A stretch of DNA of 33,836 nucleotides from an uncultured bacterium. GTDB taxonomy: Bacteria; Cyanobacteriota; Vampirovibrionia; Gastranaerophilales; Gastranaerophilaceae. Location: assembly GCA_945833895.1 (NCBI GenBank), contig CAMAGQ010000002.1:1-33836 (forward strand). Reading direction: 5' to 3'. The notes under the pieces were generated by a model, which was not told where the DNA came from, searched no databases, and saw nothing but the letters and a program-made list of their open reading frames with translations. Positions 21,545 through 26,005 of the stretch are shown piece by piece (position 1 is the first letter of the stretch; the number at the start of each line of letters is the position of its first letter). Both the position numbers and the translations under genes were made by a program.

Positions 21545-22096
21545 ATGGCATCAGGTTCATCAATAATCGCAAACATATCATCAAATTTAACAAACACATA
21601 TTCATACTTGGCATCACTTTATCCTGAGGACGGAGTGACTTATAAGAATATTACCAAAGCGAGAAACGATAATTCAAATTATCTGACCTTGAACCAACCT
21701 TTTGCATCGTATCTTCAAACAAACTTTTCAAGTTTTGACAAAGACGGTGACGGAAAAATCGGTGCGGATGAAATGTCAAAAATCACAAATACTATGGCAA
21801 CCTCAGGAGTATCAAGAGCGGAACTTTCTCAACTTGCCGCATCAGGTGCGTATTCTGCAGAACAATTGAGTAAAATTATTGATAACTTTGATGATATCGA
21901 TACAAATAATGACGGAAGAGTTACGAGTGAAGAAATTGCCGCATATACTTGTGATTGCACAAAACAAGAACGCTTAGACGAAGAAAACTATAAAAAATCA
22001 ACTCAAATGTCAGTATTTTATGGCGACGAAGACGCCTCAGAAGATGTTTCAAGTTATAGCATATTGAGTTATAAATACAAAAATTTCTTACAGTAA
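21545..22096 (+). CDS. Small EF-hand protein
   Basis: DKDGDGKIGADE and DTNNDGRVTSEE canonical EF-hand loops; no signal peptide; SD GAGGTAG region. Confidence 0.85.
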   Translation: MASGSSIIANISSNLTNTYSYLASLYPEDGVTYKNITKARNDNSNYLTLNQPFASYLQTNFSSFDKDGDGKIGADEMSKITNTMATSGVSRAELSQLAASGAYSAEQLSKIIDNFDDIDTNNDGRVTSEEIAAYTCDCTKQERLDEENYKKSTQMSVFYGDEDASEDVSSYSILSYKYKNFLQ

Positions 22097-22105
22097 GTAA
22101 AAATT

Positions 22106-22133
22106 TTGAATTGTAATGTCAAAGAATGATAAA
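22106..22133 (+). promoter_or_regulatory. Possible promoter for the downstream RNA candidate
   Basis: TTGAAT (22106-22111), 16-nt spacer, GATAAA (22128-22133); each 4/6 to consensus. Confidence 0.3.
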
Positions 22134-22136
22134 ACC

Positions 22137-22448
22137 ATGTCATCTTGGACAGTTAATTGTTGCAAAAATGAACAGAACCGGAACTTGTTCCGGTGATTGT
22201 TGTTTGCTTAACGCTGAAACTATTTTAGAGTTGCAAGTTTTGGTTGGGAATTCCCCCCTTTAGGTTTACACTGCCTTTAAGGGATGTCGATGAGAATTTC
22301 TTCTCATACGTTTGGAGGATATTTGTACCCTTTTTCTAAAGATTTTACTTTTGTGGTCGAAATATAAAATATAGATATGAGAAACGAAAGTTTTTCATAC
22401 CTCCTCCCCAAGTCTGGTAGCCGTTCTTTTTTAAGACGGCTTTTTTTT
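22137..22448 (+). ncRNA. Candidate structured RNA, family not identified
   Basis: No plausible plus-strand CDS; hairpins ACCGGAAC/GTTCCGGT, CCCTT-AGG/CCT-AAGGG, ATGAGAA-TTTC-TTCTCAT, ATGAGAAAC-GAAA-GTTTTTCAT, long-range GGAGG/CCTCC and TTGGG/CCCAA, then an intrinsic terminator; 5' end uncertain. Confidence 0.55.
22419..22448 (+). terminator. Intrinsic terminator of the RNA candidate
   Basis: AGCCGT-t-CTT-tttt-AAG-ACGGCT followed by 8 T. Confidence 0.88.
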
Positions 22449-22458
22449 GCCAAATTTT

Positions 22459-22490
22459 TCAAATAAAAAGCAAGTTTAAAAAAAACTTGC
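22459..22490 (-). terminator. Intrinsic terminator of the 22541-23188 gene
   Basis: On minus strand GCAAGTTT-ttttt-AAACTTGC-TTTTTATTT. Confidence 0.88.
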
Positions 22491-22540
22491 ATGACATAAA
22501 ATGTTTTAGGGATATATTTAAATTTTGAGGTTTAAATAAC

Positions 22541-23188
22541 TTATTTTATATTAGAAATCAATCGTTCGTCGATTTTTCTATCAATCTTTTTAACAAGAGT
22601 TCTCAATCTGGCATCCTCGTTTTGGCGTAATGTCGGATTTATTGAAATATCTCTTCTGTATTTTTTATACATCTGGATTTCTCTGTTCTTAATATCTCTT
22701 CTGATAGAGATTTTTTCTTCATCTTCCGTAATATGTTTAGAGAATTTAGCAATTACAGAAACCAAAGAAAGTACAAACAGCACCCACAAAATCTTGTCTA
22801 GCGGAACGCTTTCTCCGACAATAGCCGGTTCTCCATGAATAGGCTCAACAATGACCGTTGAATTGCTTATATCATTAGCAGTAACGTGTATTCTTAACTT
22901 ATTACGTTTCGGAGTTTCGATAACCAAACCGTCAATACTGTTAGTTCCTTTATATAAAGCGTTTACGGATTCCGCAGAAGAAATTCCGCTGAGTTCAAGT
23001 ATTAACTCGTTATTTTCAGGGGTCTTTTTAGTGACCTTTGTCATTTTATCAGAACCCAATATTACGTTATATCCTGTATCATTTTTTTCCAGAGTTATTG
23101 TATGTAAGAAATTACTCTCAGCAAAAACAGATGTCGAAGATAATATCAATGTAACTAAGAATGTGAATATAATTAAAATTTTCTTCAA
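22541..23188 (-). CDS. Signal-peptide protein with possible AMIN-like domain and a TM segment
   Basis: Signal peptide MKKILIIFTFLVTLILSSTSVFA; beta-rich HTITLEKNDTGYNVILGSDKMTKVTKK...LELSGISSAES; TM ILWVLFVLSLVSVIAKF. Confidence 0.6.
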   Translation of the reverse strand: MKKILIIFTFLVTLILSSTSVFAESNFLHTITLEKNDTGYNVILGSDKMTKVTKKTPENNELILELSGISSAESVNALYKGTNSIDGLVIETPKRNKLRIHVTANDISNSTVIVEPIHGEPAIVGESVPLDKILWVLFVLSLVSVIAKFSKHITEDEEKISIRRDIKNREIQMYKKYRRDISINPTLRQNEDARLRTLVKKIDRKIDERLISNIK

Positions 23189-23796: not shown

Positions 23797-23938
23797 ATGC
23801 GAAAAATCCCGACAAAAAACTTTTTAAAATATGTTACAAAATCTTAACAATACGGCTTAAAATATTAAAGTTATAGGAAAAAATGCCGATATAAAGAATA
23901 CGATAACTTTAAGGAAAAGCGAAAGGATATAGTAACAA

Positions 23939-26005
23939 ATGGGATTGGCAGCATCACAAGCAAGATTGTTAACAATAACCGCTCGTCTGGCAGACAACGA
24001 GTTAAGATCTCAAACGATTAACAATGCCAAAATGAGATTGGCTACTCAAAGTTCGCAAGCTAGCGAAAACTATGTTAATGCTCTTAACAATGCTACTATG
24101 AAATTCACAAACTACGCTCTTGACGGGGAATCTCAAGTTCAAAACTTAACCTTTAACGCTTTGACTGCATACAGTTCATACAACAATCAATACGGGCTTA
24201 TCAACTCTTCAGGACAATTGCTTGTCAGCGAATCTGAAGCTGCTCTTTTTGAAAAATCAGCAGGCAATTTAGATGCGTACTTGCAATACCACGGTTTGAA
24301 TTACGAAACTACCTACTACGAAAATGTAGGTAATATTACTAATGAAGGATATATTGAACCGTTCAATTTCATAACCGTTGAAGATATGAAAACCTACTTT
24401 GAACAATATGACAGTTACGAAAACTCTCAAGAAGTTGAAAAATACAATAATGCATATAATACTTATATTTCATCAACAGGTGCTTTGGAAAATGTAAGTA
24501 AAACCGTAATGAAAAATTTCTTTGTATCAAACCAAAATCTTCCTACTGTTACAATGAATGGCGGCACTTATGCGATGAATTATACAACCAGAGATTTAGC
24601 AGGAATGTTAGGTGAATTGAAAGCAGCATTAAACGACCCTAACAACACTTTCTCATTCAACAACCCGATTATCGGAGCACTTGGACTTGGTGTAAGTAAA
24701 ACTCCGGGTGAACCTTCCGCATTAGAAAACTACAACGAATTATTGAACTCTATAACTGTAAACCCTGACGGCAGTTATAATTCAACCGGCAATACTTCCG
24801 TTAAAATGGAAGAGAGAGATGGAAAAACTGTTTATATAATTGATGATTCTATTGAAATCACAATGACTGAAATCAATACAACCGAATCTATCAAATCAAC
24901 ATCAGAGTCATTAGAGGTTACAGGGGTGCTTGGAACTCTTGCAACTACAATTGGCAGTTTGAAAGCAATAGCAAAAGACGATGACGGAAATGTATCTGAA
25001 GAAACTTCTTATCGCATGGAAGGTATAGGAGCTGACGGATTACCTATAGTAAAATCTAATTCTAAAGTAAATACATCCAGCCCTGAAGATGCACAACAAG
25101 TTGTAAACGATATCCTCAATGAAATTTTGAAAGATATGGAAAGTTCATTCGGAATTGATTTTGCAGAGGCACTTTTTGATAATGATAACGCAGGTGCTGC
25201 GGCAAACAGAGCATTCTTTGAACTCAAAACAGGAACTAAAGTAACCGATCCGATTCCTGGTTCAACAAAGAGTTTGCAAGAATATTACATAGATTATGTA
25301 AACGCTGAAAACATTTATTTTAATACCATTTTCGCTGCTGATTCAATTGAAACGGTAAAAAATGATATTGATAAAGGTTTTGCAGAAAACTTCCTTGATG
25401 AAAACGGAAATCCTATTGAACTGACTTACAGAGATTTAACAGATGTAGATTTTGTACTCCGCTATATGAATGCACAAGGTTTAGCACCATCTGAAACTTT
25501 CTTGACAGTTGTTAAAGAATTTGTCGTAGACCAGATTATTGACGAATACGGCACTCCAAAATATGCCTGGGTAGATTCAACCGATACCAATAACGAAGGC
25601 AATGCGGATGCAAAGGCTCAATGGTACACAAATCTGTTCAACAGAATGTCTAAAGGATATAAAGCACTTGAAAACGGCTTGGCATCTTCTCCACAATGGA
25701 TTGAATATGCACTTGAAAGCGGTATTGTTACAATGGAACAAGTTGACGGAACTTACCAATGGCAAGGTTTGGATTACAAGGCTTGTGCGAGAATTACCGA
25801 AGAAACAGACGATGCTGCAGTTGCAAAAGCAGAAGCAGAATATTCAAGAGCAATGAATGATATTGAAGCAAAAGATAATATCTATGACCTTGAATTGAAA
25901 AACATTGATACTGAACATTCTTCATTGCAAACAGAATACGATTCAATCAAAGGAGTTATCTCTAAAAATATTGAAAGAACATTTAATTTCTACAAAAACG
26001 CATAA
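23939..26005 (+). CDS. Large hypothetical protein with MGLAASQARLLTITARLADNE N-terminal signature
   Basis: 688-aa ORF, SD AAGGA upstream; distinctive helical N-terminus and C-terminus (LKNIDTEHSSLQTEYDSIKGVISKNIERTFNFYKNA); no Sec signal. Confidence 0.8.
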   Translation: MGLAASQARLLTITARLADNELRSQTINNAKMRLATQSSQASENYVNALNNATMKFTNYALDGESQVQNLTFNALTAYSSYNNQYGLINSSGQLLVSESEAALFEKSAGNLDAYLQYHGLNYETTYYENVGNITNEGYIEPFNFITVEDMKTYFEQYDSYENSQEVEKYNNAYNTYISSTGALENVSKTVMKNFFVSNQNLPTVTMNGGTYAMNYTTRDLAGMLGELKAALNDPNNTFSFNNPIIGALGLGVSKTPGEPSALENYNELLNSITVNPDGSYNSTGNTSVKMEERDGKTVYIIDDSIEITMTEINTTESIKSTSESLEVTGVLGTLATTIGSLKAIAKDDDGNVSEETSYRMEGIGADGLPIVKSNSKVNTSSPEDAQQVVNDILNEILKDMESSFGIDFAEALFDNDNAGAAANRAFFELKTGTKVTDPIPGSTKSLQEYYIDYVNAENIYFNTIFAADSIETVKNDIDKGFAENFLDENGNPIELTYRDLTDVDFVLRYMNAQGLAPSETFLTVVKEFVVDQIIDEYGTPKYAWVDSTDTNNEGNADAKAQWYTNLFNRMSKGYKALENGLASSPQWIEYALESGIVTMEQVDGTYQWQGLDYKACARITEETDDAAVAKAEAEYSRAMNDIEAKDNIYDLELKNIDTEHSSLQTEYDSIKGVISKNIERTFNFYKNA

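Follow-up and report, generated by a model that had tools for sequence, protein, structure and literature searches.

In the window, the whole 33,836-nucleotide stretch of DNA that was analysed, a gene for an EF-hand protein (21545-22096, plus strand) is followed on the same strand by a small RNA gene and then by a convergent gene on the opposite strand, which, as an initial annotation had noted, has a separate terminator-like stem of its own (22470-22490). The EF-hand protein gives a weak match (37.6 bits against a cut-off of 120) to NF041410, a family whose members bind calcium and are substrates of type III secretion. By its BLAST and cmsearch conservation and its predicted fold (z -4.60), the sequence at 22370-22448 on the plus strand is a genuine standalone RNA gene of ~79 nt that is missing from the annotation, and sequence analysis establishes its structure, promoter, distribution and complementarity to mRNAs as well as the gene itself. 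From 5' to 3', the RNA consists of a hairpin, an unpaired CCUCCUCCCC linker and an intrinsic terminator.

Extent and fold of the small RNA gene

The initial annotation had proposed that the stretch encodes an unannotated RNA, structured and standalone, with a dedicated terminator and a hairpin capped by a GNRA loop. That proposal is borne out, the GNRA cap being a trait of this species, and every element it listed is present where it was placed; however, the RNA is ~79 nt long and not, as proposed, 200-310 nt. The dense secondary structure described for the stretch is real when all 312 nt are folded together (-84.2 vs -67.2 kcal/mol for shuffled sequences, z -3.66, better than 100 of 100 shuffles). 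Yet 22370-22448 alone reaches a z of -4.60, with none of 200 shuffles equalling it, whereas the upstream part, 22137-22336, folds near chance (z only -1.34; 18 of 200 shuffles equal), and the excess of the whole stretch is therefore placed in its last quarter. BLAST with the whole stretch gave matches in 51 of 59 related genomes, nearly all of them confined to the 3' part, and the order-wide match covers only ~50 bases (22399-22448). In 57 related loci, all of which match 22330-22448, blastn finds nothing that matches the segment 22100-22289, and the hairpins once assigned to 22177-22194 and 22256-22283 are thus unconserved. The long-range GGAGG/CCTCC and TTGGG/CCCAA pairings proposed to enclose the internal hairpins, whose 5' arms fall before the conserved promoter begins, are likewise unsupported and were rejected for lack of conservation. 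Just past the terminator, identity in the alignment of the window's genus is 0.48. We infer that 22370-22448 is transcribed, with the 5' end set at 22370 by the position of the promoter and the onset of conservation.

The 5' hairpin, UAUGAGAAAC-GAAA-GUUUUUCAUA (22376-22399, plus strand), keeps its pairing while its sequence varies. Within the genus the stem is constant and the loop variable (GAAA, GUAA, UUAU, AUCA and others), and in other families the letters are wholly different (e.g. GACC-GAAA-GGUC) with pairing retained, double changes being found in all four modelled pairs. Next comes the linker core CCUCCUCCCC (22400-22409, plus strand), an anti-Shine-Dalgarno sequence complementary to GGGGAGGAGG and the presumed site of pairing with mRNAs. 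Its identity is 0.99 in the genus, it is near-invariant across the order and it is found in other families of the class; the linker reads ACCUCCUCCCCAAG in almost every copy, and single-sequence folds predict the core to be mostly unpaired (median 0.72). The core is followed by a conserved AAGUCUGGU (22410-22418, plus strand), invariant in the genus at nine of nine positions (identity 1.00), with AAGUCUAGU as its counterpart in the order's other families and AAGUCACGC in the class's other families. The gene ends in an intrinsic terminator, AGCCGUUC...GACGGCU plus a U tract (22419-22448, plus strand), which the initial annotation had recognized and whose conserved stem shows compensatory double changes in five of six modelled pairs. 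When 80 matches were aligned to the covariance model R2, standard pairs filled 94.1% of cells, double-sided changes occurred in nine of 10 pairs, and the covariation score was 0.449, vs 0.184 for shuffled alignments (0 of 500 equal) and at most 0.087 when slid; because this alignment was fitted to the model, the counts lean towards it. Individual folds, independent of the R2 alignment, mostly give the same hairpin-linker-terminator anatomy. Conservation and compensatory changes in related genomes, two checks suggested at the outset, were thus both positive.

The same data weigh on three other readings of the locus. A short protein-coding gene starting from an ATG at 22377 (MRNESFSYLLPKSGS...) would account for an open frame that runs from the hairpin and for near-invariance in the genus. 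However, the frame is lost outside the genus, where the hairpins are wholly different and bring no matching ATG, sequence changes preserve pairing, and in the window a stem encloses the ATG, which has no Shine-Dalgarno (SD) sequence before it; a peptide-coding reading, rejected because its frame is not kept, has next to no probability left. Scarcely more probable is that the stretch belongs to the upstream EF-hand gene as its 3' untranslated or terminator region, or else forms a 6S-like RNA of 200-310 nt. Its position on the same strand, 273 bp past the EF-hand stop, and the dense folding predicted upstream speak for such a reading, against which stand an upstream sequence that lacks conservation and whose fold barely exceeds chance, a conserved promoter belonging to the RNA itself and neighbours that vary between species. 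As to the divergent 6S RNA that the initial annotation had entertained, no 6S match appeared up to E=10 in 22050-22550, and a hairpin, open linker and terminator make a different anatomy from a long hairpin with a central bubble, so that this identity was rejected. More generally, a search of 4227 Rfam families at gathering and relaxed thresholds, also proposed at the outset, gave no credible match in the window, no known family rising over its threshold, and no small RNA was reported for the class in the literature searched.

Promoter, distribution and genomic setting

Directly upstream of the gene lies a promoter of the sigma28/FliA type (22337-22363, plus strand), made up of TAAAG at 22337-22341, a 14-nt gap and GTCGAAAT at 22356-22363. 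The consensus for sigma28/FliA/SigD promoters is close to TAAAGTTT-N11-GCCGATAA, and TAAAG-N16-CGA has the same layout. An exact match to that motif precedes 47 of 62 copies of the small RNA, and one with N17 precedes four more, the spacing of the boxes being fixed in nearly all copies, including those with unrelated flanks. In the genus, identity is 0.99 for TAAAG and 0.62 for the promoter gap. The window's genome encodes a FliA/WhiG sigma factor that scores above the NCBIfam curated cut-off and contains 15 TAAAG...GNCGATA sites, vs one for a reversed control. Across aligned copies the elements thus run from a palindrome (in the window's genus) through TAAAG-N16-CGA, ~7 nt and a near-invariant onset to the hairpin, the linker ACCUCCUCCCCAAGUCUGGU and the terminator.

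The palindrome is an operator-like inverted repeat, ATCTCCTCC-N4-GGAGGAGAT in the genus consensus and imperfect in the window, located at 22290-22318 (no strand assigned), ~20 bp upstream of the -35 box. In 30 aligned loci of the genus its mean identity is 0.67 and it sits at the same place in L002-L030; its two halves change independently of each other and frequently fail to match, behaviour more in keeping with a site in DNA than with a stem in RNA. The repeat is probably, judging by this pattern, the binding site of a regulator. The hairpin ATGAGAA-TTTC-TTCTCAT (22290-22307) that the initial annotation had counted as RNA overlaps it, and the palindrome was rejected as a part of the RNA, for it precedes the promoter and its halves change separately.

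Covariance model R1 detected the RNA in 297 of 384 genomes of the class, including nearly the whole of the window's family and every sampled member of the order, often in two to five copies per genome. Judging by gene content and the literature, these non-photosynthetic cyanobacteria look like the Vampirovibrionia ('Melainabacteria'), with Gastranaerophilales as the order. In families f9 and f15, weak model hits prove by eye to be homologues, with a sigma28-like box, a hairpin, CCCCAACCUCCUCCCCAAGUC and a terminator. Model R2 gave no match outside the class at E<=0.01 among 294 genomes of the phylum, and plasmid and phage collections gave no match to the RNA. Neighbouring genes differ from species to species, so the RNA gene is independent of them. 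Variants were also encountered. One genome carries the gene in three tandem copies, 362 bases apart (L049, G050:C16). A second paralogue at L037, L045 and L054 (G036, G042) has no 5' hairpin and consists of AAUCUCUUCCCCAAGUCUGGUAGCC and a terminator behind a sigma28 box. A related-looking RNA at L086 and L090 (family f9) has CCCCCCUCUUUUAGUCUGCCGC and then a terminator, and is perhaps a paralogue with a different linker.

Linker complementarity and a proposed flagellar connection

The window's genus has largely lost the flagellar filament protein, flagellin (PF00669) being missing in 23 of 25 of its tested genomes and found in 14 of 15 sampled members of the order's other families. Similar losses were reported by Soo et al., who found only a subset of flagellar genes kept in most of the Gastranaerophilales genomes they had (PMC4040986), and by Di Rienzi et al. 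for one genome (PMC3787301). Still retained in the genus are the FlhA export gate, rod-like FlgB/FlgC, FlgG-like proteins, the sigma factor and the small RNA. The flagellin-less genome G000 has one full-length and one partial FlhA match and FlgB/FlgC/FlgG-like rod proteins (G000:C48:4047-6038, G000:C8:5615-6637; L205), a gene content that identifies a reduced flagellum-derived apparatus.

In flagellated relatives, a search for GGGGAGG-N-ATG unexpectedly gave flagellar genes, namely flgE in three genomes (G036, G038, G039) and flgB in one of them (G038). Hook and rod genes were then considered as a set, gathered with PF00460 in flagellated members of the order and assigned to flg classes by sequence motif; three FlgE among the target proteins were scanned and fall in the FlgEFG subfamily above the NCBIfam cut-off. 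GGGGAG, a perfect complement to the linker, precedes flgE in seven of 10 cases, flgD in four of six, flgK in four of eight, flgB in three of nine and flgF in one of seven, and is absent before flgC (0/7) and flgG (0/10); the flgE genes of G037, G041 and G043 are among those that do not have it. Taken together, flgD, flgE and flgK carry it in their SD in 15 of 24 cases, vs one of 24 for flgC, flgF and flgG (p=1.4e-5) and two of 79 background genes of the same order, these last being crudely called and the GGGGAG rule having itself arisen from the GGGGAGG search. With the three prompting flgE genes held out, 12 of 21 remain (Fisher p=2e-8 vs 2/79, and 3e-6 vs 2/46 background genes with a strong SD, the latter count being an upper bound that derives from the larger set). 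The tail of the 16S rRNA is CCUCCUUU and reads as GGAUCACCUCCUUU in four genomes of flagellated relatives; the GGGG extension therefore favours the small RNA, as the upstream Gs pair G-U with the rRNA and G-C with the linker. Predicted interaction energies point the same way, at -18.0 kcal/mol for flgE vs -10.7 for background, but discriminate weakly. Linkers permuted at equal C/U composition parted targets from background equally well in 30 of 300 trials, so the energies alone do not prove the order of the linker.

These matches point to a mechanism in which a late flagellar sigma factor of the sigma28/FliA type would transcribe the small RNA from its own promoter, and the 5' hairpin and 3' terminator would hold the C-rich linker CCUCCUCCCC open. 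The linker would then pair with mRNAs whose SD is extended to GGGGAG(G), blocking the binding of ribosomes; the predicted targets in flagellated relatives are the hook-stage genes flgE, flgD and flgK and some flgB. Given a late sigma factor and hook-stage targets, the RNA would turn down the stage that precedes its own expression. The features that say most about the locus are the sigma28 promoter, the near-invariant anti-SD linker and the matching SDs of hook genes in relatives, all of which the initial annotation had missed.

Two other roles for the linker must be weighed against masking of SDs. In one, the RNA is a titrator or sponge that uses its CCUCCUCCCC linker to capture a protein or a second RNA, such as a G-rich small RNA, the hook-gene matches being secondary. 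Conservation of the linker far exceeds what a set of targets needs, the invariant AAGUCUGGU beside the core is unexplained by SD pairing, and the cyanobacterial RNAs Yfr1 and Yfr2, with nearly complementary motifs, offer a precedent (PMC6778093); but hook-gene SDs are specifically extended to fit the linker and those of flgC, flgF and flgG in the same genomes are not, which leaves the sponge an improbable account. Somewhat less probable again is a general modulator of translation that imitates the 16S anti-SD and reduces initiation across many mRNAs whenever sigma28 is active. In its favour, CCUCC is common to the linker and the 16S tail, and the window's own genome shows no specific set of targets; however, the extra CCCC discriminates against ordinary AAGGAGG sites, and it is chiefly in hook genes that the matching GGGG extensions occur.

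For the window's genome, GGGGAG-N-ATG occurs 21 times vs 24 for the control, with no coherent gene set, and neither its flgB nor its flgC carries GGGGAG. The near-invariant sequence nevertheless argues that the RNA does something in the flagellin-less genus, and, as the RNA, a FliA-type sigma factor and the export gate are all kept there, the circuit probably serves the remaining export and basal-body machinery or new targets. We infer repression by the RNA, as well as any role it may have in the window's species, from these patterns of sequence. The preferred reading, in which we have good though not full confidence, is thus of an SD-masking small RNA gene with its own sigma28 promoter that would damp hook-stage genes in flagellated relatives and, in the flagellin-less genus, would probably serve remaining machinery or new targets. 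In the window itself, a perfect sigma28-type promoter, TAAAGTTATAGGAAAAAATGCCGATA (23866-23891), stands before an ORF on the plus strand (23939-26005) whose 688-aa product starts with MGLAASQARLLTITAR and matches nothing in Pfam or NCBIfam. The same genome has at least two others of this kind, with an MG(L/M)AASQAR start, behind sigma28 boxes. The 688-aa protein and its kin are possible substrates of remnant flagellar export. A bolder and distinctly more doubtful proposal is that a flagellar checkpoint RNA, already present when the class was young, was kept with hardly a letter changed after loss of the filament, and that in gut bacteria it has come to control a secretion apparatus derived from the flagellum together with the exported proteins that sigma28 regulates. 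Either way, retention in flagellin-less gut species raises the question of what role is now left there to the sigma28 regulon and the export system.

Comparison with known small RNAs

By the features tested, the RNA is rated a new family of a kind already known, distinct from Yfr1, from the rhizobial CCUCCUCCC RNAs and from 6S RNA, and sharing two tested features with CjNC1/CjNC4 of Campylobacter. Yfr1 (PMC2190773) has a matching anatomy, i.e., a 5' stem-loop, an unpaired linker with an ultraconserved motif and a 3' terminator, and a similar size (54-69 nt). However, its motif ACUCCUCACAC is absent from the present RNA, which has ACCUCCUCCCCAAGUC and a promoter of the sigma28 type, and R2, the one direction in which the two were compared, found nothing outside the class in the 294 genomes of the phylum. 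The rhizobial anti-SD RNAs SmelA075 and SmelA099 (PMC3927594) contain the same letters, CCUCCUCCC, but display them in three or four hairpin loops, whereas the present RNA has one copy in an unpaired linker between two hairpins; the alphaproteobacterial families of Rfam gave no significant match in 22050-22550 (suhB/mmgR, 16 bits vs a cut-off of 41). Escherichia coli UhpU, MotR, FliX and FlgO (PMC10578931) are FliA-controlled small RNAs that tune flagellar synthesis, as is proposed here, but they are derived from untranslated regions and largely use other pairing sites, including coding sequences, whereas the present RNA is an independent anti-SD gene.

In its proposed way of working, the RNA resembles CjNC1/CjNC4 (CJnc10/CJnc170, FlmR), sigma28-dependent small RNAs of thermophilic Campylobacter. 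These have a terminator hairpin, base pairing is predicted between them and the ribosome-binding sites of flagellar genes from earlier stages, a hook gene among them, in a proposed feedback loop, and they gave Hfq-independent partial repression in an E. coli reporter system (PMC4626219, PMC11187230). Common to these and the present RNA are a short length, a sigma28-type promoter directly upstream and a terminator hairpin; complementarity to flagellar ribosome-binding sites is seen in the flagellated relatives, not in the window's own genome. CjNC1/CjNC4 are ~44-47 nt and have sigma54-dependent targets, whereas the present RNA has a 5' hairpin, is class-wide, persists in flagellin-less species and is matched by hook genes near which no sigma54 box was found. 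If the proposed circuit is true, it would be a separate and far more widely conserved case of that put forward in Campylobacter, and would suggest that late-to-middle flagellar feedback by a small RNA has evolved more than once.
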